A DNA stretch of 64,000 bases. Source: Pseudanabaena frigida (lineage in GTDB: Bacteria; Cyanobacteriota; Cyanobacteriia; Pseudanabaenales; Pseudanabaenaceae). Location: positions 1-64,000 of the forward strand of contig QBML01000007.1 of NCBI GenBank assembly GCA_003242085.1. The letters run 5' to 3'. Below the pieces are notes generated by a model. The model saw nothing but the letters and a program-made list of their open reading frames with translations. It was not told the origin of the DNA and did no database searches. Shown here one piece after another: positions 10,737 through 58,416 of this stretch. Position 1 is the stretch's first letter. Every line of letters starts with the position of its first letter. The position numbers and the translations under genes are program-made.

Positions 10737-13559
10737 ATGACAGCAGATCCGCAGAACGAGCAAACGGCTTTGGAAAATGTCACGGCTGGCGGTGATATCA
10801 ATGCGAATATCACGCAAGAGATTCATCATCAGCCGAATAAACTTGCGGAGAAAATTGGGATTACGGTATCTGGTGGTGTTGTAAATGTCGAAAATTTGAT
10901 TATTGCCGATCGCCCAAATGCTCCTCAATCAGAAAGGTTCAGCCATGACCAAGGCTTTTATAACAATCTTGGCGATCGCGAGTTTTATGGTGAGAGCATT
11001 TTTGTTGGGCGTGAGGCTGACTTAGATAAGTTGCATGAGTTGTTGCAAGCGCAATCTCAGCAAGTGAAAGATTTGCCGATGGTGTTAATTGCTGGCATGG
11101 CGGGGATGGGTAAAAGCGAACTGGCGTGGCAGTATGCCAAATTACATCTCAATGATTTTACTGGCGGGGTGGGCATTGTTGAGGCGGCGCAGTTTGGAGA
11201 AGAGATCAGGGACTTTATGCAGCCGAGGTTTTGTGAGGATCGGGATTTGCGGTATGAGCGAACTTTAAAGGCGCAAGTGGCGGAAGGTTGGCAAGCATGG
11301 CAAAAAATTTGTGGTGCAGAGCGATTCGCGCTGATCGTTATTGATGATGTGACGGATTATCAGACTCAGGTTGCGCCCTATTTGCCAAAGATTTCGGGCG
11401 ATCGCTGTCCGTTTCGGTTTGTGCTGACTTCAAGATCGCAGTTGCGCGGTACTTTGGCTGTGCATGAAATTAAGGAACTGACGACTGAGGCGGCTGTGCA
11501 GGTGTTGAGACAATGGGTAGCCCCAGATGAAGATGACGATGAAGACTTGCAACCAGTGATTGACGATCCTGTGCTTGCGGCAACTCTGTGCGATCGCTTG
11601 GGATGTTTGCCATTGGCACTGACTTTGGTGGGGAGTTGGTTGAGTATGCCCGATCGCAATTTACCGATGGCGATCGCGGCTTTGGAAAAGCATGGGTTAG
11701 CCAGTGATGCCCTGAAACCAGATCGCCTTGATACTCGACAGAAGGCAAAACAGGGTGTGCAGGCTGCCCTGTCGATGAGTTGGCAACTTTTGTCTCCCGA
11801 CGCACAGCAGCTTGGGCGAATTTTGAGTTTGTTTGAGCCGATAAATTTGCCTTGGGATTTGGTGGAGTCGGTAGTGGAAGCCTATCTGCAATGGTCAGCA
11901 ACGCCGCCTGTTCGCAAAAGTTGGTGGCAAAAGCCTGAGATCGCTTCGACCGTTGTCTTTGCTCCAATTCGTAATCTAGGAGATGGGAGGATTGCGCTGC
12001 GAGTGGCAAGTTTATTGCACATTGTCGAACGCGGGAGGGTCTATCGCTTGCATCGTTTGGTGCATGAGTTTTTGAGTGAGCAATGGCAGGATGGAGATCG
12101 CGAAGGTTGGCAGGATGCATGGTTGCGAGGGCTGAGCGATCGCGCTAAAGAGATTCCTGCGTTTGCAGCATGGGATCTGGTGACAGCATGGCAACCCTTC
12201 CGCCCACATTTTGCATCGGCTCAAAAATTTGTCGAAGATCGGCTCAAATCCGCTACGAATCCTGCTTTAGTCAGTGCCGATAAACTGCAAAAAAATAATC
12301 TCATTGGCGGTAGTTTTCGGTTAAACCAAGCACCAATTTTTGAGGCAACCTATCGCCAAGCGAAAAGTACCCACGATCGCGCTAAGGCGGCTTTGGCTAA
12401 GGGAGAATCTGCTGCGGCTCAAAATTATTTTGGTGAGGCGATTAAGGGTTATCAGAGGGCGATCGAGCAAGCACGGGTTGCTTTGCCTGAAAACAGTATG
12501 ATTTTGGTGGGGTATCTTCATCAGATTGCTGTTTTATTCTATGAGTTAGGCAACTATAGCGCTGGTATTCCTCCCGCCGAAGAAGCTGTTAAAATTGCCG
12601 ACATTAAAGCAAGTCCTCTCACATTGGCATTGTATTTGTCTTATTTGGGGCTGCTTTACAATTTACAAGGAAAGTATAGCGAAGCAGAATTGCTCTTTTT
12701 GCGATCGCTCTCAATCTGTGAACGTCAACTAGGAGCAGACCATCCCCATGTCGCCGCCTGTCTCAACAATCTCGCAGGACTTTACAAATCGCAAGGAAAG
12801 TACAGCGAAGCCAAACCTCTCTATGTCAGATCGCTCTCGATCTGTGAACGCCAACTAGAAGCAGACCATCCCAATGTTGCCGCCAGTCTCAACAATCTCG
12901 CAGGACTTTACGAATTGCAAGGGAAGTACAGCGAAGCCGAACCTCTCTATCTGCGATCGCTCTCGATCTGTGAACGCCAACTAGGAGCAGACCATCCCGA
13001 TGTCGCAACCAGTCTCAACAATCTCGCATTACTTTACAAATTGCAAGGGAAGTACAGCGAAGCTGAACCTCTCTATCTGCGATCGCTCTCAATCAGGGAA
13101 CAGAAATTAGGAGTAGACCATCCCGATGTAGCCTTTAGTCTCAACAATCTCGCATTACTTTACCGAGTGCAAGGGAAGTACAGCGAAGCCGAACCTCTCT
13201 ATCTGCGATCGCTCTCGATCAGAGAACGTCAATTAGGATCAGACCATCCCGATGTCGCCACCTGTCTCAACAATCTCGCAGTACTTTACAAAGCGCAAGG
13301 GAAGTACTGCGAAGCCGAACCTCTCTTTGTGCGATCACTCGAAATCTGGGAACGAAAACTAGGAGCAGACCATCCCGATGTCGCATCCAGTCTACTCAAC
13401 TTAGCCACCTTCTATCATAATACCCAACGTCATCCCGAAGCACTGCAATCCATGCAACGCGCCATCCAAATTTACGAACAAAAACTTGGCACTGAGCATC
13501 CCGACACTCAAAATGCTCTCAGTTGGCTTCAGGAGATCAAGGAAAAAGGAAAAGGGTAA
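10737..13559 (+). CDS. STAND/NB-ARC-type NTPase with C-terminal TPR repeats
   Basis: This is a 940-residue signal-transducing ATPase. Residues 1-65 form an unrecognised N-terminal region with Gly-rich beta-like sequence (AGGDINANI, SGGVVNVENLI). The P-loop GMAGMGKS is at 120-127, Walker B is LIVIDDV near residue 200, and the GLPL-type motif is CLPLALTLVG near residue 290. A winged-helix region follows. The C-terminal third carries about seven 42-residue kinesin-light-chain TPRs with LNNLAxLY and GKYSEAEPLYLRSL. Such proteins oligomerise on ligand sensing, and many act in defence or cell death, but no effector domain is recognisable here. The coding end merges with a purine-rich tract shared with the region after the CHAT gene. 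Confidence 0.82.
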   Translation: MTADPQNEQTALENVTAGGDINANITQEIHHQPNKLAEKIGITVSGGVVNVENLIIADRPNAPQSERFSHDQGFYNNLGDREFYGESIFVGREADLDKLHELLQAQSQQVKDLPMVLIAGMAGMGKSELAWQYAKLHLNDFTGGVGIVEAAQFGEEIRDFMQPRFCEDRDLRYERTLKAQVAEGWQAWQKICGAERFALIVIDDVTDYQTQVAPYLPKISGDRCPFRFVLTSRSQLRGTLAVHEIKELTTEAAVQVLRQWVAPDEDDDEDLQPVIDDPVLAATLCDRLGCLPLALTLVGSWLSMPDRNLPMAIAALEKHGLASDALKPDRLDTRQKAKQGVQAALSMSWQLLSPDAQQLGRILSLFEPINLPWDLVESVVEAYLQWSATPPVRKSWWQKPEIASTVVFAPIRNLGDGRIALRVASLLHIVERGRVYRLHRLVHEFLSEQWQDGDREGWQDAWLRGLSDRAKEIPAFAAWDLVTAWQPFRPHFASAQKFVEDRLKSATNPALVSADKLQKNNLIGGSFRLNQAPIFEATYRQAKSTHDRAKAALAKGESAAAQNYFGEAIKGYQRAIEQARVALPENSMILVGYLHQIAVLFYELGNYSAGIPPAEEAVKIADIKASPLTLALYLSYLGLLYNLQGKYSEAELLFLRSLSICERQLGADHPHVAACLNNLAGLYKSQGKYSEAKPLYVRSLSICERQLEADHPNVAASLNNLAGLYELQGKYSEAEPLYLRSLSICERQLGADHPDVATSLNNLALLYKLQGKYSEAEPLYLRSLSIREQKLGVDHPDVAFSLNNLALLYRVQGKYSEAEPLYLRSLSIRERQLGSDHPDVATCLNNLAVLYKAQGKYCEAEPLFVRSLEIWERKLGADHPDVASSLLNLATFYHNTQRHPEALQSMQRAIQIYEQKLGTEHPDTQNALSWLQEIKEKGKG
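12640..13480 (+). repeat. Tandem 126-bp TPR-coding repeats
   Basis: Units of 126 bases recur in phase inside the STAND gene; for example CTCAACAATCTCGCA recurs every 126 bases from about 12762. Central units are nearly identical at DNA level, which indicates recent expansion or gene conversion. The last unit is divergent. Confidence 0.85.
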
Positions 13560-15468: not shown

Positions 15469-17157
15469 TTAAACCTCGATCGCCACTTTACCTCTAGGAA
15501 AAGCGACGCAACAGAGGATATAACCCGCAGCTACTTCCGAAGGTTCGAGGGCTTCTTCATCGTAGCCTTCCATTTTCACCTCACCCTCTAGCTTTACCTT
15601 CTTGCAACTACCACAACTACCGACACGGCAACTATTGCGAATTTTGACACCTGCTTGCTCAGCGATTTCTAAAATCGACTCTTCACCATCACAGGGAATT
15701 TCTTTACCTGATTTGGTAAATACTACTGTGGCAGCAGTGGCTTTACTTACTTTAGGCGTATTTGGCGATCGGCTAGCAACGGGCATAGATTCTTGAGGTA
15801 ATTGTAATTTACCAAGCCATGCCTTGATGCCAAAAGCGGGAGATGGCGCACTTGCCAAAGGTTCATCTTTAGCTGGTTTTGACGATTTCTTCGCCCCGCC
15901 AAAGCTCTCCTCATGATATTGCTGCATCGGAAAGCCGATTCCTTCTAACAGAGATTTAGTACTTTGCATAAAGCTTTCAGGACCACAAACAAATACCATG
16001 CGATCGCGCCAATCAGGAGCAATCATTTCTAACATTGCTGGTGTCAGTCTGCCACGTATGCCCATCCATGATTGTTGAGGTGTAGGGCGAGTAACCGTTA
16101 CCGCTAGATGAAACTTTGGCGATCGCGCTGCCATCATTTCTAATTCTTGGCGATAGATGATATCTTCTGGGCTTTTTGCACAGTGAAAAAATACTACATC
16201 ACAGTCTGAGTGCGTGTCGTAAATCCAGCGTGACATCGACATCATCGGCGTAATGCCACTCCCAGCCGAGAGAAACAATAGCTTTTGCGAAGGATACTCA
16301 AAACAAGAGAACTTACCGAAGGCTCCACTTGCTTGAATCTGACTCCCCACTTTGAGATGGTCATGCAGCCAATTAGAAACCAAACCCGCAGGAATACTCG
16401 GATCTTCAGGATTGCTAGAAGGAACGCGCTTAACGGTAATTTCAAGGGAATGGGGACGAGAAGGAGAAGATGAAATAGAATAGGAACGCAATACCTCTGC
16501 ACCATTAATATCTAATTCTAGAGTTAAGAACTGCCCTGCTTTGTAAGTAAATAAATTAGGTGGATTGGTAACAAAGCAAAAGGTTTTGACATCGGCAGTT
16601 TCTTCAATGATTTTGATACAGTTCAAGGCGAGATTTCCCTTTGTCCAGCGTTCGATTTGTTTGGGATCGAGACAGGCAAGGGGCATGTATTGACTGGGAT
16701 CTGCTGCTCGATCTTTAGCAACCTCTGCGGGGCGATCGCTTGATGATTTCTCTGCGCTAGCTGAGCTAATTGGATGGATAAGTGATGGCTCAGTCGGATC
16801 TTCTTCATCTTCTGAAGATTTTCCCGACGAAGAAAGATGTGAAATATCTTCGATTAGAACCGCAAAATCACCTAGTTGAATAATATCCGCTGCTGATAGT
16901 TGAACTACATGTAATGGTTCAAGCTGGATGTCGTTAACTAGCGAACCATTGGTACTATCTAAGTCAATAAAGTGATATTGATTGGCTTCAAAAGAAATCT
17001 TGCCATGCTCTCGACTGACAGTAGAGCTATCGAGTAGAACATCGCAGTGCGGTGCTCGACCAATCAGAAAATCTTTCTTGGGGCTAGTTTCAGTTGACAG
17101 ACAAACAGATTCTAGTTCTTTGGGAATTTGCGTATTAAAAATTCTAAGCTTTAGCAT
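15469..17157 (-). CDS. FHA domain / flavin-NAD(P)H reductase / [2Fe-2S] ferredoxin fusion
   Basis: A 562-residue three-module protein. The FHA phosphothreonine-binding domain spans about 25-105 (LIGRAPHCDV, TVSREHGKI, DSTNGS). A charged linker spans 106-165. A ferredoxin-reductase module at about 170-415 has RSYS (224-227, FAD), SAGSGITPM (297-305, NAD(P)H) and CGP (391-393). The C-terminal plant-type [2Fe-2S] domain at about 475-562 has Cys510, Cys515, Cys518 and Cys549/550. The reductase-ferredoxin order resembles Hcr/Vanillate-reductase types; the N-terminal FHA suggests Ser/Thr-kinase-dependent docking. It lies 28 bases after the membrane Fe-S gene, an operon. The electron acceptor is unknown; the membrane partner is an inference. 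Confidence 0.88.
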   Translation of the reverse strand: MLKLRIFNTQIPKELESVCLSTETSPKKDFLIGRAPHCDVLLDSSTVSREHGKISFEANQYHFIDLDSTNGSLVNDIQLEPLHVVQLSAADIIQLGDFAVLIEDISHLSSSGKSSEDEEDPTEPSLIHPISSASAEKSSSDRPAEVAKDRAADPSQYMPLACLDPKQIERWTKGNLALNCIKIIEETADVKTFCFVTNPPNLFTYKAGQFLTLELDINGAEVLRSYSISSSPSRPHSLEITVKRVPSSNPEDPSIPAGLVSNWLHDHLKVGSQIQASGAFGKFSCFEYPSQKLLFLSAGSGITPMMSMSRWIYDTHSDCDVVFFHCAKSPEDIIYRQELEMMAARSPKFHLAVTVTRPTPQQSWMGIRGRLTPAMLEMIAPDWRDRMVFVCGPESFMQSTKSLLEGIGFPMQQYHEESFGGAKKSSKPAKDEPLASAPSPAFGIKAWLGKLQLPQESMPVASRSPNTPKVSKATAATVVFTKSGKEIPCDGEESILEIAEQAGVKIRNSCRVGSCGSCKKVKLEGEVKMEGYDEEALEPSEVAAGYILCCVAFPRGKVAIEV

Positions 17158-17185
17158 GAAGATTCCTTAAACAATAAAATAAGCG

Positions 17186-20125
17186 CTATCTTGACTGTTT
17201 TAGCTGTGATTGCGAAGAGAGTATACTTTGTAGAGAAGTACTCACAGAAATGAGTAAATGCTCTGTGTATTTAGGATCGTCGTGTAGTGCTTGCATAAAC
17301 TCTTTGCTATCGATCGCTAATATCAATGTTTGGGGTGATGTAGCGATCGCCGAATTTGTAAAGGGAGTTTGGGTTAATGCTTCCAATTGTCCAATTGTTT
17401 GATTGGGCGCGATTTTTTTCAAGCGCTGTCGGCGATCGCTACCACTAGCACGAAGCTCTACTGAACCACTAACTAGAGCGAAGATTGTCCGAGGCAAATC
17501 ACCTGCTTGGTATATCACTTCGTTAGAATCGTAAACCCTAATCTCTGCATTTCTCGCTAACTCCGCAAGAGCATCGGTCTGGAGTGGTCGAAATAAATTA
17601 TTGCGGAACAGTAGTAACAACTTTTCAAAGGTATCGAGAGCTTGATTATTCCCAGCATTTATTGCACTTGTAAGAGTTGTCACCAAATTATCATTAGCTA
17701 AATCAGCAGACTCAGATTTTATTGTCTTTACTACAGTTTTAGCGGCTCCAGATAGCAACACACTAGAATGGCGATCGCTCAAAATATGTTGAGCTTCAGC
17801 AGTGGCTTTTGGTAAATCAATTTGTTTTAAGGCATAAAGACTAGCCGTTGTTACTAATACATCTGGATCTTCCATCAACTGGATTAATACTGTAAAGATA
17901 GATTCTCTACTAGTAGGAGGTAAGCGGAACTCTGTAACTTCCTTAATGGAGTTAAAAATTTCGATCGCTCTAGGTGGCAGTCGATCTTGCCAAGGAGAAA
18001 TCTCAGTTACGTCATGGAGTAAATCTAGTAATATCTTTGCCGAGAGACCTCTATGGGTAAGCTCTTCTAGATCGGCAGCAATTTTATATGCCTCAGGTGC
18101 GTCGCCAAAAATTTCGAGAATCCTTAGCAATTTAGTTACTAGCGATCGCTGTTGCTGCTGTAGTTTAAAAACTAACAAACTCACTACATCTACTGGTAAA
18201 ATCGCAGCTCTTTGGAGAATGTGCGTATAGTTAGCAAGCTTCTGGAGTTGTTGATAAGAAGACTTAGCTGTTGTATCTAAGAGACTGCCCTCTTCGCCAA
18301 TTCGCGCCAAAATTTCTGCTTCCTCTTGAGCTGCAACATTATATTCCTGTCTAAAAGATACAATTTGCTCTTCTTTGAGTCGCATGGATTTGTTTAAAGG
18401 CAAATCACTCTCAACTAATTCCCGCAGCATCATTTCTAAAGCTCGGCGATACTTGCTTAGGCGCGATTCATTTTCGAGGCTGAGTTGTCGGGAATGATTG
18501 AGCATCTGAACATCATTAATTCCCAATTCGACAAGAATTTGATTGTGATCGACCTCATCAATTTCTAACTGTTGGCGCATCAAATCGAATACTTCCAGAC
18601 TACTAGAAGAGTTAATATTTCCTGCGGCAAGAGCTTCTTTGAGAACATCCTTATACATTTGCACCCGCTTTTCATGGGTGAGTTCTGGTAGAGTCTTTGC
18701 CAGTACATAGACTTCATCTGCTTTGAGATCGGCTATCGATCTACCTTCCAATACTTTAGAAAAATCAAAAGCTAACTTGCTAAGTTGACGGCGCAAACTT
18801 GACGCTAAACTCTCGCGAGCATATATCTGAGAAGTCCGTCCAAAAGTTCGATAAAACCACATGGTTGAGGCAATTACAGCAACCCAGCCAATGAACTGCT
18901 GCTCAAAAGGATAAAGCCATCCTAATGTAGGATTTACACCCATCCAAAATAGCAAGTTAAAGGAGATAAAAGCGCATAGGGTGAAAGCACGATGATGGAT
19001 TTGAGATGCGTTTAAAACGAGGTTGTGGCGCTTGGCATGACGTTTGGAATAACTCTTGTAAAGGCGTTCTAAACGTCTGCCAATTATATAAGTAATTAGA
19101 GTTGAAGAAGTTAGAGTTAAAGGAACTGCAAAAAGTTTAGGAATGGGAATTGCTTGCCCTGAGATATAAAATCCCGGCTGCCAGAGCATAGATAATTGAT
19201 CGGTCTCTCGCCATACACCTCCAGCTAAGAAATTGGAATTGCCAGAGTACAAAGTGAAGTAAGCATAAAACCCAATTACTAAACCGAGATAGCCGTAATA
19301 AAGCAACTTGCGATCGCCACGATTGATCCCATCCCAATAGGAGCGTTCAGCGTCAATATCAAAGCATGGAGACTGGCAGCTTACACAGGCACTTTTCTCT
19401 TTGCCAGCGCGATCAACCGTGCGACACATTGATTGCGTAATTCCTGACTCTTGGTTTTGGTGAGCCTCACTTGCTAGTAGACCACGCGGGCCAGTATAAA
19501 CTACTTGTACGGGAGCCATCGGACAGAAATATTGACACCAAGATTTCCCCGCATAGAGAAATCCTACGGTTATCGCTGCGACGATCGTCAAACACAAAAA
19601 AACACCTAGAGCAAAGCGATCGGAATTAACGAATAGCAAACGCACATTTAAGCCCAGAAATAACAGCCCAAATTGCATATATAAGAAATTACGCCCCAGC
19701 CATGAATTTTTTGCGATGACGACTGGTTCGGAGCGCACGGTATTTGTAAGTGGATCGACGACACGGATACGACGTTGCCATCCTAATGCTCTAGGAATTT
19801 GCGACAAAAACATCAACGGACAGATACGCCTCCAAGCTTCATGTCCAAATACTAAAAGCATAAAAATGCCAAGTGGGACGATCATGCCCCAAAAAATTCG
19901 CGGTCCCATTGCGTAGGGGGCAAGATCGTTGCAAGTACCTTGAAATTGAACACATCCCAACTCTTTTTTTATCCGAAACGGGCTGAGCATCATCTGCGGA
20001 TCGTTGGGATCGGTCAGATGATGCGAGATGGGATCGTAAAACATCGAAAATATTAGAATTAGCCAACCGATCGCCAATAGCCATCGAACATAATGCATCT
20101 GCCTTTCTGACACTTTTTGAAGCAT
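17186..20125 (-). CDS. Membrane 4Fe-4S (NapH/CcoG-like) protein with HEAT-like helical region and cyclic-nucleotide-binding-like domain
   Basis: About 979 residues from the ATG at 20125 (an in-frame TTG lies six codons upstream). The N-terminal half has about eight membrane segments and ferredoxin-like motifs: WCQYFCPM (Cys197, Cys201) and Cys234 with CVSCQSPC (Cys247, 250, 254), as in NapH/NosR/CcoG proteins. A long helical, HEAT-like region follows. The last ~120 residues resemble a cNMP-binding domain, but the phosphate-cassette consensus GE-x-A-L...RxA reads IGQLEALTQTPFTNSA, so the key Glu and Arg are lost. It is the first gene of the operon with the FHA-reductase, suggesting membrane electron transfer. 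Confidence 0.82.
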   Translation of the reverse strand: MLQKVSERQMHYVRWLLAIGWLILIFSMFYDPISHHLTDPNDPQMMLSPFRIKKELGCVQFQGTCNDLAPYAMGPRIFWGMIVPLGIFMLLVFGHEAWRRICPLMFLSQIPRALGWQRRIRVVDPLTNTVRSEPVVIAKNSWLGRNFLYMQFGLLFLGLNVRLLFVNSDRFALGVFLCLTIVAAITVGFLYAGKSWCQYFCPMAPVQVVYTGPRGLLASEAHQNQESGITQSMCRTVDRAGKEKSACVSCQSPCFDIDAERSYWDGINRGDRKLLYYGYLGLVIGFYAYFTLYSGNSNFLAGGVWRETDQLSMLWQPGFYISGQAIPIPKLFAVPLTLTSSTLITYIIGRRLERLYKSYSKRHAKRHNLVLNASQIHHRAFTLCAFISFNLLFWMGVNPTLGWLYPFEQQFIGWVAVIASTMWFYRTFGRTSQIYARESLASSLRRQLSKLAFDFSKVLEGRSIADLKADEVYVLAKTLPELTHEKRVQMYKDVLKEALAAGNINSSSSLEVFDLMRQQLEIDEVDHNQILVELGINDVQMLNHSRQLSLENESRLSKYRRALEMMLRELVESDLPLNKSMRLKEEQIVSFRQEYNVAAQEEAEILARIGEEGSLLDTTAKSSYQQLQKLANYTHILQRAAILPVDVVSLLVFKLQQQQRSLVTKLLRILEIFGDAPEAYKIAADLEELTHRGLSAKILLDLLHDVTEISPWQDRLPPRAIEIFNSIKEVTEFRLPPTSRESIFTVLIQLMEDPDVLVTTASLYALKQIDLPKATAEAQHILSDRHSSVLLSGAAKTVVKTIKSESADLANDNLVTTLTSAINAGNNQALDTFEKLLLLFRNNLFRPLQTDALAELARNAEIRVYDSNEVIYQAGDLPRTIFALVSGSVELRASGSDRRQRLKKIAPNQTIGQLEALTQTPFTNSAIATSPQTLILAIDSKEFMQALHDDPKYTEHLLISVSTSLQSILSSQSQLKQSR

Positions 20126-20143
20126 AAAGTGATTTTCCGTCAA

Positions 20144-54875: not shown

Positions 54876-57800
54876 ATGCCTGTAATTACGATTCGTGAAG
54901 AGCAACAGGTGAATGATGGCTTTCTTGCCAATGTGCGGATTGATGGGCGTGATTATCCAAATATCAAGATTAGCGATCCTTTTTTGAAGTCGGAGGAGGA
55001 TTCGCTGGAGTGGTACTTTGAGCAGTGGTTGCAGTACCCGATGCTATATACGACTAGGGCTGCTGATGTGGTGGTTAGTATCAGAGAATATGGCGAAAGG
55101 TTGTTTGACCAGATTTTTGCGGACAGAAATGCTTATACGGACTATGTGGGGTTGCGTAATAATCTGGGAACATTGCGCTTTGAGATTGAGGGGATTAATC
55201 CAGAGTTTCAGGCTTTGCATTGGGAGGCGTTGCGCGATCCTAAATTACCACGACCGCTAGCAGTGGATTGTGTGATGGTGCGCAAAAGCACCAAACCATC
55301 GTCAGTGATGGCAGATGTAAATCCTTCGCCCACACTAAATGTGTTGATGGTGACGGCAGGCAAGACCTTACAAAAATGATGCCGCTTATCGGTTGATTTC
55401 GCGTCCTTTGATAGAGGCTTTGGGCAAGAGTCAGTTGTCAGTGAAGATCGATCTTTTGCGTCCTGCGAACTTTGAGAGCTTGTCCAATCGCTTAGAAGAT
55501 ATGGGGGCTGGGCATTATCATATGATTCATTTTGATTGTCATGGGGCTTTGCTGACCTATGAGCAATGCAATGGGGCAAGTAGAGTGGCGGTCGATGCGC
55601 TGACATTAAAGCAACGGTATGGCAGGACGCAGATTGCGCCCTACAGCGGCGTGAAGGCATTTTTAGTATTGGAGGGAAATGAGGATGGCGAAGATGACTT
55701 AGTGGAGGCGACGGAGTTGGCGGATTTGCTGACGGGGAAGAGGATTCCTGTCTGTATGCTGAATGCTTGCCAGTCGGGGAAACAGTTGGGAACGGAGACG
55801 GGGTTGGTGGAGGACTATCGCGAGACGAGTCTGGGTAGTCAGTTGATGGCGGCGGGTATGCAAATGGTGGTAGCGATGGGCTATAGCGTCACGGTGACGG
55901 CGGCGAAGGTGGTGATGGCGGCGGTGTATGAGCAGATTTTCAATAAGAAGCTGTTGGAAGATGCGGTGCGGTTGGGGCGGCGGGAGTTGTTTAACCAGAA
56001 GGAACGGAGGGCTTATTTTAATTATGAGATTCCGTTGGAGGATTGGTTGTTGCCTGTGGTGTATGGCTCTCAACAGGTGAATTTGAATTTGCGGGAGTTT
56101 ACACCAAATGAGAAAGAAACATACGGACTTGAAAAGTACAAAAAATATAAATTCCAACAGTCAGAATATGGCTTTGTTGGACGCGATCTTGATATTCTGA
56201 AAATCGAGAAAGCTTTATTACGGCATAATTTTCTGCTTTTGCAGGGGATGGGTGGAACGGGGAAAACTACTTTGCTGAAATATTTGCATGAGTGGTGGCA
56301 AACAACTAATTTTACCAAGTTGGTTTTCTATTTTGGCTATGACAAAAAAGCTTGGACAGTAGAGCAACTTGTGCAAGAAATTGGAGCGCAACTTTTTGTT
56401 GATCGTCTTGAGCCTTTTCATCGTTTTCTGCCAGAAGCTAAGGAGCAAGAAGTAATTGATAAGCTGCGTACTGAGTCTCATATCTTGATTTTGGATAATT
56501 TGGAGTCAGTTACTGGGCAAAGATTGGCTATCAAAAATACGCTGTCAAAGCAAAAACAGACAAAGTTGCGAGATTTTCTGGCGCGATTGACGAATGGCAA
56601 GACGCGGGTGATTTTTGGGTCGCGCAGTGGCGAGGATTGGTTAAAGGCGGCGACTTTTCAGCAAAATGTCTATGGGTTGCGGGGGCTAGACCAAGAGGCA
56701 AGGACGCTGTTGGCGCAAAGGATTTTGGTGCGTCATGTGCCGCAGAGGGTAAAGGCGATCGATTCCGATCCAGAGTTTACAAGATTAATGAAGGTGTTGG
56801 CGGGGTATCCGTTGGCGCTGGAGGTAGTATTGCCAAATCTAAAAAGTCAATCGCCATCGCAGATTTTGGAAGCTTTGCAGGCGGCGGATTTTGATTTGGA
56901 TAGTGGCAGTGAGGATAAAACCAAGAGTATTTTGAAGTGTGTGGAATATTCCCACAGTAATTTGTCGCCCGATGCTCAAAGGTTATTGATTTGTCTGGCT
57001 CCGTTTACGGGGTTTATTTGGCGTGATGGTATTCCCAGTTATGCACAAGAATTACAAAAGCTAGAACCGTTTCAAGATTACGATTTTACGAATTTTGATG
57101 GGGCGATTCAGGAGGCAATTAATTGGGGTTTGTTGGAAGGAATGGATGAGGCAAATCGACTGTTGACGATTCAACCAATTTTTCCCTATTTCCTAAAAAC
57201 TAAGTTAGCGAGTTTGGATGAGGCAACCCGCAAGGCACTACAAGAAGGTTTTAAGAATTACTATCAAGGTTTGGCAGGTTCCTACAATCAGTTAATGGAA
57301 TCGAAAGATCCACAAGAACGTCAGCTAGGAATCTTCTTCTGTCGATTGGAATATGAAAATCTCTACAATGCGCTGCAAACTTGTTTGGCGAATCGAGAAA
57401 CTATTGAAATCTTCTTTTGTTTGGATAAATACTTTGAAGTTACTAATGATATTCAAAGCAAGCTCAAATTATCAAAATTTGTGGTTCAAGAACAAAAAGC
57501 TTATCCACTGGAAATTTGCGAGGGTAAAATAGGTCTAGAAATCGCTTTTGCAATTGATAGATTAGCTAGCTGCTACTTGGAGACCAAGAATCACCAAAAA
57601 GCAAGAGAGTTTTGTCAAGAACTTGTGCTACTTTGTCAAAACTTGAAAGGGGTAACAGAAACTCAGGTGAAATCTGAAGTGGCTGTCGCTTATTTTAATT
57701 TAGGAAGAGTTGCCCAAGAATTGCGAGAATATGGAGAAGCGCGGCAAAACTATCAACAGGCTCTGGCGATCTGTATTGAATTTGGCGATCGCTACAAACA

Positions 57801-58416
57801 AGCCAGCGCATACCACCAGTTGGGAAAAGTCGCCCAAGAATTGCGAGAATATGGAGAAGCACGGCAAAACTATCAACAGGCGATCACGATCAAAATCGAG
57901 TTTGGCGATCGCTACAAACAAGCCAGCACATACCACCAGTTGGGAAGCGTAGCCCAAGAATTGCGAGAATATGGAGAAGCGCGGCAAAACTATCAACAGG
58001 CTCTCACGATCTTTATCGAATTTGGTGATCGCTACTACCAAGCTGTCACATACCACCAGTTGGGAAGCGTAGCCCAAGAATTGCGAGAATATGGAGAAGC
58101 GCGGCAAAACTATCAACAGGCGATCGCGGTCTATATCGAATTTGGCGATCGCTACTCCCAAGCTGGTACATACGGACAATTAGGAATATTAGCAGCAGCA
58201 GAAAACAACCTCACTGAAGCAGGTCAAAATCTATTACAAGCCTTAGAAATCTATGCTCAATTCCAAGATCAGCATAGTGTGGGAATAACTGTAAATAATC
58301 TCTCTCACATCTATCAAGCTACCCAAGACCAAAGCCTGTTAGAAGCAATGGCAAAGATTTTAGGCGTAACTGTTGAAGAACTTGAACAATCGCTAGAATC
58401 GCTAGAATCAACTTGA
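54876..58416 (+). pseudogene. CHAT-STAND-TPR protein gene split by a +1 frameshift
   Basis: Two frames, 54876-55379 and the rest of the gene to 58416, form one ~1180-codon gene. Near 55361-55365 the sequence GGCAAGACCTTAC has one extra A; removing it gives A-G-R-P-Y-K-N-D-A-A-Y-R-L-I-S-R-P, the usual CHAT junction. Downstream are the caspase-like His (FDCHGAL) and Cys (MLNACQSG), a STAND NTPase (GFVGRD, GMGGTGKT, LILDNLESV, GYPLALEVV) and C-terminal TPRs. An intact version would be a ligand-sensing protease of the type seen in bacterial cell-death systems. Whether this is decay, programmed frameshifting or a sequencing error cannot be told. Confidence 0.8.
57706..58186 (+). repeat. Four near-identical 120-bp TPR-coding repeats
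   Basis: TTGCGAGAATATGGAGAAGC recurs exactly every 120 bases at 57721, 57841, 57961 and 58081. Each unit encodes AQELREYGEARQNYQQA followed by IEFGDRY. Near identity at DNA level points to recent duplication. Confidence 0.9.

Follow-up and report, generated by a model that had tools for sequence, protein, structure and literature searches.

An FHA-reductase-ferredoxin fusion protein (F1) and a membrane Fe-S protein (F0), encoded by neighboring genes in Pseudanabaena frigida, form a conserved unit that recurs across cyanobacterial genera. Judged from its sequences, the unit looks like a possible route for feeding NAD(P)H electrons into the membrane under the control of protein phosphorylation, kept in many genera. 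The two proteins may act as a dedicated, FHA-controlled electron-transfer pair from which electrons most likely leave to an acceptor on the outer side of the membrane, a reading that we hold at about even chances. The window analyzed here is a stretch of 64,000 nucleotides, in which F0 lies upstream of F1 on the same strand, with 28 nt between the F0 stop and the F1 start and a plausible ribosome-binding site recognized by eye (Table 1). The F0 start at ATG 20125 gives 979 aa, and an alternative TTG at 20143 would give 985 aa. The nearest named relatives of the window's cyanobacterium, according to the F0 scan and tree, are Pseudanabaena sp. lw0831 and ULC068bin1. Elsewhere in the window, two large ORFs (10737-13559 and 55393-58416) carry repeated near-identical TPR-like stretches and read by eye as NTPase-TPR signaling proteins.

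Table 1. Positions of F1, F0 and their domains and motifs in the window, with one second FHA domain from a related locus
Feature	Position	Strand	Basis
F1, FHA-FAD/NAD(P)H reductase-plant-type [2Fe-2S] fusion, 562 aa	15469..17157	-	ORF + Pfam
F1 FHA domain, residues 31-96; G33, R34, S48, H51, N70 present	16870..17067	-	Pfam + residues
F1 FAD-binding domain, residues 184-283, R224-x-Y226-S	16309..16608	-	Pfam + motif
F1 NAD-binding domain, residues 295-401, GSGITP + CGP motifs	15955..16275	-	Pfam + motifs
F1 [2Fe-2S] domain, residues 483-554, C510-x4-C515-x2-C518 ... C550	15496..15711	-	Pfam + motif
F0, membrane Fe-S protein + helical region + cNMP-like domain, 979 aa	17186..20125	-	ORF, Pfam, model
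F0 membrane core with eight predicted membrane helices, residues 1-450; remotely similar to NapH/CcoG (Fer4_5)	18776..20125	-	profiles + model
F0 C58...C65 pair between helices 1 and 2, predicted outside	19931..19954	-	alignment
F0 C197-x3-C201-P motif, predicted cytoplasmic (C102 at 19820-19822)	19523..19537	-	alignment
F0 C234 ... C247-x2-C250-x3-C254-x-D-I-D motif, predicted cytoplasmic	19364..19426	-	alignment
F0 helical (HEAT-like) region, residues about 455-840	17606..18763	-	model; HEAT_2 below cut-off
F0 cNMP-like domain, residues about 841-979, with Q913 and N924 in place of the binding residues	17189..17605	-	Pfam, fold, residues
Second FHA example, residues 873-937	L084:10001-13336		one of 30 long F0s

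The initial annotation had read F1 as an FHA domain joined to a flavin reductase and a plant-type [2Fe-2S] domain, and this holds: the open reading frame is present and all four Pfam domains pass their cut-offs (FHA, 60.6 bits with a cut-off of 20.7; FAD_binding_6, 51.2 bits; NAD_binding_1, 69.1 bits; Fer2, 49.4 bits). With its FAD, NAD and Fer2 domains and their motifs, F1 belongs to the ferredoxin-reductase superfamily with a plant-type [2Fe-2S] domain. Across 43 distinct F1s, the motif residues counted for the FAD, NAD and [2Fe-2S] domains are retained in 40 to 43 (40 to 41 for the separate [2Fe-2S] domain), with the exception of the proline of CGP, which is present in 32 and has serine in its place in nine. 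The five residues that we take to be the phosphopeptide-binding set of FHA domains (G, R, S, H and N) are all present in the window F1. Among the 43 sequences, two of which have gaps here, G is found in 41, R in 39, S in 39 and H in 41; the asparagine (N70 in the window) is retained in only six and is mostly lost in the Nostocales that have a linked kinase, and two unlinked F1s have lost both the arginine and the serine. The predicted F1 structure is of modest confidence (pLDDT 66.6), with disordered linkers at residues 109-163 and 420-473.

In a broad sample of 292 evenly drawn cyanobacterial genomes (F0 called at E 1e-10, F1 at E 1e-40), F0 was found in 36 and F1 in nine, and all nine F1 genomes were among the 36, one of them with a truncated F0 (nominal hypergeometric P of 2.5e-9, kinship among genomes ignored). 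The two genes are adjacent in G000, G193, G062, G123 and G091, as well as in G278 with its truncated F0, but they lie apart in G280, G143 and G105, which counts against a unit. A scan of genome contigs with an F0 alignment gave 455 relatives; the top 80 were retained, all with cyanobacterial titles. Among the 114 F0 loci used for linkage counts, after removal of four duplicates, F1 is on the locus in 27 and lies directly downstream on the same strand in 25 of these, with a spacing of 10-614 nt by coordinate difference. A second sample of 145 genomes of the Nostocaceae-type family contained F1 in 38, F0 in 45 and both in 36, and F0 is near and on the same strand at 36 of 41 F1 places. The five exceptions are G357, G278, G306 and G355, without an F0 match within 15 kb on the contig, and G301, with F0 on the opposite strand; a search for F0 found none in G306 and located it apart from F1 in G355. 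The pair had been proposed as a two-gene unit, and its recurrence across genera (25/27 F1-linked loci, 36/41 F1 places and 9/9 F1 genomes of the broad sample) bears this out. Among the titles and abstract openings listed in searches of open-access papers, none describes the F1-F0 pair, in agreement with the earlier remark that no described system has this combination. The truncated locus (L068, G278:C159:52957-54781) encodes only the first ~130 residues of F0, and F1, starting at about residue 64, comes immediately after; a deletion inside the pair seems to have removed the stretch between.

In the F0 tree, a strongly supported clade of 73 rows (clade B) contains none of the 27 F1-linked loci; of the other 14 rows outside clade B, four have less than 1.8 kb of downstream sequence. 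F0 and F1 distances are correlated, with an r of 0.93 over 25 loci and of 0.81 for 180 divergent pairs. In both trees, Chamaesiphon groups with Pseudanabaena, and Kastovskya with some Nostoc; the two cross taxonomy in the same main way, as expected if the F0-F1 pair moves together. G280, in which the genes are apart, and G123 are placed differently in the two trees, both on long branches.

F0 had been described as a NapH/CcoG-like membrane core followed by helical repeats and a cNMP-like domain. The three-part layout stands in the Pfam results and in the predicted structure (mean pLDDT 81, pTM 0.58), in which eight long N-terminal helices lead into an extended helical region and then a C-terminal domain rich in beta strands, whereas membership in the NapH or CcoG families does not. 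Only cNMP_binding passes its Pfam cut-off in the window F0 (49.8 bits, cut-off 27.5), with HEAT_2 and Fer4_5 below theirs. Fer4_5 matches all 22 aligned F0 cores (best 4e-7), while the CcoG model matches 14 of the 22 and the NapH model 12 (best E 2.9e-4), all weakly and far from the cut-offs, which are 213 bits for NapH/MauN (TIGR02163) and 316.7 bits for CcoG/FixG (TIGR02745; 11.8 and 9.1 bits for the window F0). When the window's genome was searched at 1e-3, the NapH profile gave two matches, F0 not among them, and the CcoG profile gave none. The NapH/CcoG-like label is therefore, on profile scores, one of remote likeness and not of membership. Elsewhere in that genome, a 737-aa frame distinct from F0 (G000:C22:197489-198025; L160) scores 49.6 bits with the NapH model, below its cut-off. 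The F0 core profile had no match at E 1 among PDB sequences, and fold searches with the F0 model gave matches confined to the cNMP domain. Simple hydropathy flagged seven of the eight model helices, missed residues 406-428, and also flagged residues 635-653 outside the membrane part.

Seven F0 cysteines (C102, C197, C201, C234, C247, C250 and C254 in the window) are invariant in all 125 distinct F0s, and C58 and C65 are present in 118 and 117 of them, respectively. Loops on one side of the membrane carry 8, 8, 5 and 5 lysines and arginines versus 3, 0, 2 and 0 on the other, and because of these positive-inside counts, the seven invariant cysteines are predicted to be cytoplasmic and C58 and C65 to be outside. 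Seven is one short of two all-Cys [4Fe-4S] clusters, which counts against our main reading, and the stand-alone [2Fe-2S] ferredoxins encoded near some F0s count in favor of electron transfer. At one locus (L097:8191-9682), F0 is closely preceded by two such genes of interest, one for a plant-type ferredoxin and one that weakly matches a calcium-binding-protein model.

The C-terminal domain of F0 has a cNMP-binding fold (model residues 834-977, Z of 18.4, rmsd of 2.1 over 143). Gln and Asn stand at the positions that we take to be the ribose-binding Glu and phosphate-binding Arg of the cNMP cassette, and because of these replacements the domain is not supported as a nucleotide sensor in the window's genome; we rejected cNMP sensing by the window F0. 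Relatives at L081, L088, L097, L124, L132 and L138 retain GE...RSA in this domain. Short F0 forms of 541-568 aa, which end after the membrane core, occur at eight loci in seven genomes (L192-L199) and adjoin a complete FHA-reductase-ferredoxin F1 (one checked by Pfam). Since these forms do so without the HEAT/cNMP tail, the tail is, as far as gene content indicates, not essential to the F0-F1 module.

A second FHA domain lies between the helical region and the cNMP-like domain in 30 of the 125 F0s, all outside clade B, with 24 of these at F1 loci and six at loci without F1 in view. Thirteen F0s at F1 loci are without it, including those of the window, its Pseudanabaena kin and the short forms. 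In a Pfam scan of nine proteins, seven long F0s (L084, L092, L081, L088, L076, L089 and L138) had FHA at 40.7-58.6 bits (cut-off 20.7), and no FHA was found in the clade-B F0 of L105. The F0 FHA has all five canonical residues in most of the long Nostocales F0s shown, where the F1 FHA is without the Asn. L089 encodes an F0 with FHA and without the cNMP domain. F1 also varies: the L200 variant is without the [2Fe-2S] domain and has its F0 elsewhere (L204), and L201:6661-9384 encodes an FHA-reductase fused to an MFS transporter (907 aa), in a genome that gave no F0 match.

Thirteen named loci, 12 from Nostocales and one from Plectonema, have a gene downstream of F0-F1, on the same strand and 54-3905 nt past F1, that combines CHASE2 with a Ser/Thr kinase carrying HRDxKPSN and DFG motifs. 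CHASE2-kinase matches at 1e-180 are present in 104 of the 145 Nostocaceae-type genomes. Above 850 bits, a line drawn after inspection of the list (the top match in an F1-less genome, G399, is 799 bits), the kinase is found in 24 of the 145, all 24 with F1, and it lies within 4 kb of F1 in 20 and on other contigs in four. Other kinases adjoin the pair in two F1 genomes without such a match, directly upstream of F0 at L202 and against F1 on the opposite strand at L203. Within 6 kb, a kinase is found at 16 of 43 F1 loci versus 0 of 88 F1-less F0 loci, CHASE2 at 18 versus 2, and DUF928 at 19 versus 1, rates that lean toward F1 loci because the neighbor profiles were trained on F1-neighbor genes; seven of the 88 control loci have less than 4 kb of flank, and many F1 loci are from Nostocales. 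Within named Nostocales only, the kinase is present at 12 of 17 F1 loci versus 0 of 9 F1-less loci. Against our main reading stand the window itself, which has no kinase within 6 kb of F1-F0 and whose genome matches the CHASE2-kinase query 37 times (either part counted), and the chance that DUF928, CHAT and secretion genes move together with the F1 neighborhood as a single island. The suggestion that FHA links the pair to Ser/Thr kinase signaling gains contextual support from these kinase neighbors and from the second FHA in F0. The available part of a survey of cyanobacterial Ser/Thr kinases includes CHASE2 and FHA kinases (PMC2176072), and the neighboring CHASE2-kinase is of the same kind; here, however, FHA sits on a redox enzyme in the kinase's locus, a partner not mentioned in that part of the survey.

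Clade-B F0s have no F1 on their loci, and for 14 of the 73, spread across different parts of the clade, nitrate-transporter genes are no more than six genes away. At nine loci (L098, L107, L131, L136, L149, L040, L044, L047 and L055), F0 comes directly after an nrtD-like gene. For the one operon checked (L098), scores above the NCBIfam cut-offs of the NtrB and NtrC/D models confirm the identity of the transporter. Because clade-B F0 genes directly follow nitrate ABC transporter operons in several lineages, there are hints that this membrane Fe-S family has a role in nitrate use. NtcA boxes (GTA-N8-TAC) were considered and rejected; the window has nine versus 6.4 expected, with none just upstream of F0. 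A box within 350 nt was found at 4/27 F1-linked, 1/14 nrt-linked, 3/62 other and 1/11 short loci, which is not informative.

A Cu/Zn SOD with a lipoprotein-like start recognized by eye lies within 6 kb at 11 of 43 F1 loci versus 0 of 88 F1-less loci, and haloperoxidase-like genes do so at four (three above cut-off) versus 0, with rates that lean in the same way as those of the kinases. Genes flanking short-form F0-F1 at L192:2028-3956 and L193:8165-10039 match DUF6851 and VCPO_2nd above cut-off, the one at L195 matches VCPO_2nd, and the one at L197 falls below the Pfam cut-off. VCPO_2nd occurs at 26 places in the 145 genomes, and five of these are close to an F0-F1 pair, two of the five in a contaminated assembly (G358). 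A neighboring protein at L194, recognized by eye, is presumably lytic-polysaccharide-monooxygenase-like. The SOD and haloperoxidase-like neighbors hint that, in some lineages, electrons leave on the outer side.

In NCBIfam, F1 matches GbcB best (382 bits), followed by the NADH oxidoreductase PRK10684 (191 bits), which we take to be Hcr. Its reductase and [2Fe-2S] domains come in the same order and with the same motifs as in both of these, but F1, unlike them, has an N-terminal FHA; it misses the GbcB equivalog cut-off of 500 bits, and its partner is the membrane protein F0, where theirs is a Rieske or hybrid-cluster protein. F0 has membrane helices and a CxxxCP motif on the predicted cytoplasmic side in common with NapH/MauN and CcoG/FixG, which accompany the weak profile matches; it differs from them in its second cysteine motif, its eight predicted helices, its own reductase gene and its tail (HEAT-like, cNMP-like and, in relatives, FHA), as well as in the missed curated cut-offs.

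In the mechanism that we propose, the F1 FAD would take a hydride from NAD(P)H and pass single electrons to F1's own tethered [2Fe-2S] domain, which would dock on the cytoplasmic face of F0, where the seven invariant cysteines may hold one or two [4Fe-4S]-type clusters. Electrons would then exit through the membrane part of F0. Rather than a soluble enzyme, their most likely acceptor would be one on the outer face, whether the conserved Cys pair, a metal or oxygen. Binding between FHA, which is always on F1 and also on F0 in the long forms, and a phosphorylated Thr on the partner or a kinase would recruit or release the reductase, and in Nostocales the kinase for this switch would often be encoded beside the pair. 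NAD(P)H-to-membrane electron flow is plausible from the cofactor motifs; we infer the flow from NAD(P)H through FAD to [2Fe-2S] within F1 from family knowledge, and the transfer to F0, kinase control and outward exit from context. Among the exits, we would place an outer acceptor first, then quinone and then copper.

NapH-type relatives are thought to oxidize quinol, and this, together with the many membrane helices of F0 and the conserved prolines near helix 6, would suit transfer from F0 to plastoquinone; the pair would then serve as a small respiratory or cyclic route from NAD(P)H to quinone and would not be an exporter. We find this rather unlikely, as the neighbors of known role in some lineages (SOD and haloperoxidase-like) act outside the membrane. 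The pair might also be a redox sensor whose FHA domains signal the state of NAD(P)H or the redox state of the membrane to Ser/Thr kinases, with little bulk flow; the kinase and CHASE2 neighbors, the FHA on one or both proteins and the cNMP-like domain would fit such a role, but it appears unlikely given that the electron-transfer motifs, including those of the separate [2Fe-2S] domain (40 to 41 of 43 F1s), are retained almost without exception.

We give only a slim chance to F0 being a cupric reductase like CcoG that would provide the neighboring SOD or other outer copper enzymes with Cu(I): the window F0 misses the CcoG cut-off by far (9.1-11.8 versus 316.7 bits), no copper site was identified in F0, and haloperoxidases of the VCPO-like kind found nearby use vanadate. 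What makes it worth weighing is that CcoG, in the available part of its description, reduces Cu(II), contains two Fe-S clusters and receives its electrons from an unknown donor (PMC7558416). The CcoG model also matches 14 of 22 F0 cores, if weakly, and the SOD neighbor is of the Cu/Zn type. It seems very improbable that F1 is the reductase of a soluble oxygenase, in the way that GbcB is for GbcA, and that its link to F0 is incidental. GbcB and PRK10684 are its best matches and a Rieske gene lies beside F1 in Kastovskya, but when loci were read by eye this was the one locus at which a Rieske gene was noticed, on the opposite strand, and the recurrent partner of F1 is F0; we rejected the Rieske protein as an F1 partner.

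If the exit is outward, as in the electron-transfer pair that we prefer, F1-F0 would have in common with NADPH oxidases (NOX) a path from NAD(P)H through FAD and the membrane to an outer acceptor. NOX carries heme, whereas F1-F0 is predicted to have Fe-S clusters, a separate reductase subunit and probably FHA control. A bolder form of this reading, which we think decidedly unlikely, would make F1-F0 an Fe-S analogue of eukaryotic NADPH oxidase, in which an FHA/kinase-switched reductase feeds a membrane Fe-S protein that delivers electrons to oxygen or another outer acceptor, with the superoxide converted to peroxide by the neighboring lipoprotein SOD and the peroxide, in some lineages, spent by a vanadium-haloperoxidase-like enzyme.

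The study of F1-F0 defines a membrane Fe-S family with 455 loci in one collection scan, the best 80 of which were examined, and with another clade that is partly beside nitrate transporters. Ser/Thr phospho-signaling in cyanobacteria is, in our judgment, abundant and little understood; F1-F0 ties it to a concrete redox enzyme and a candidate kinase in the same locus, so that the FHA-kinase question becomes testable with three genes. The available part of a review reports extracellular superoxide for at least four cyanobacterial species (PMC6247811). If the exit is outward, F1-F0 would offer a gene for this superoxide, and if the NADPH-oxidase-like reading is true, the pair would be a candidate for an enzyme with which cyanobacteria make extracellular superoxide.
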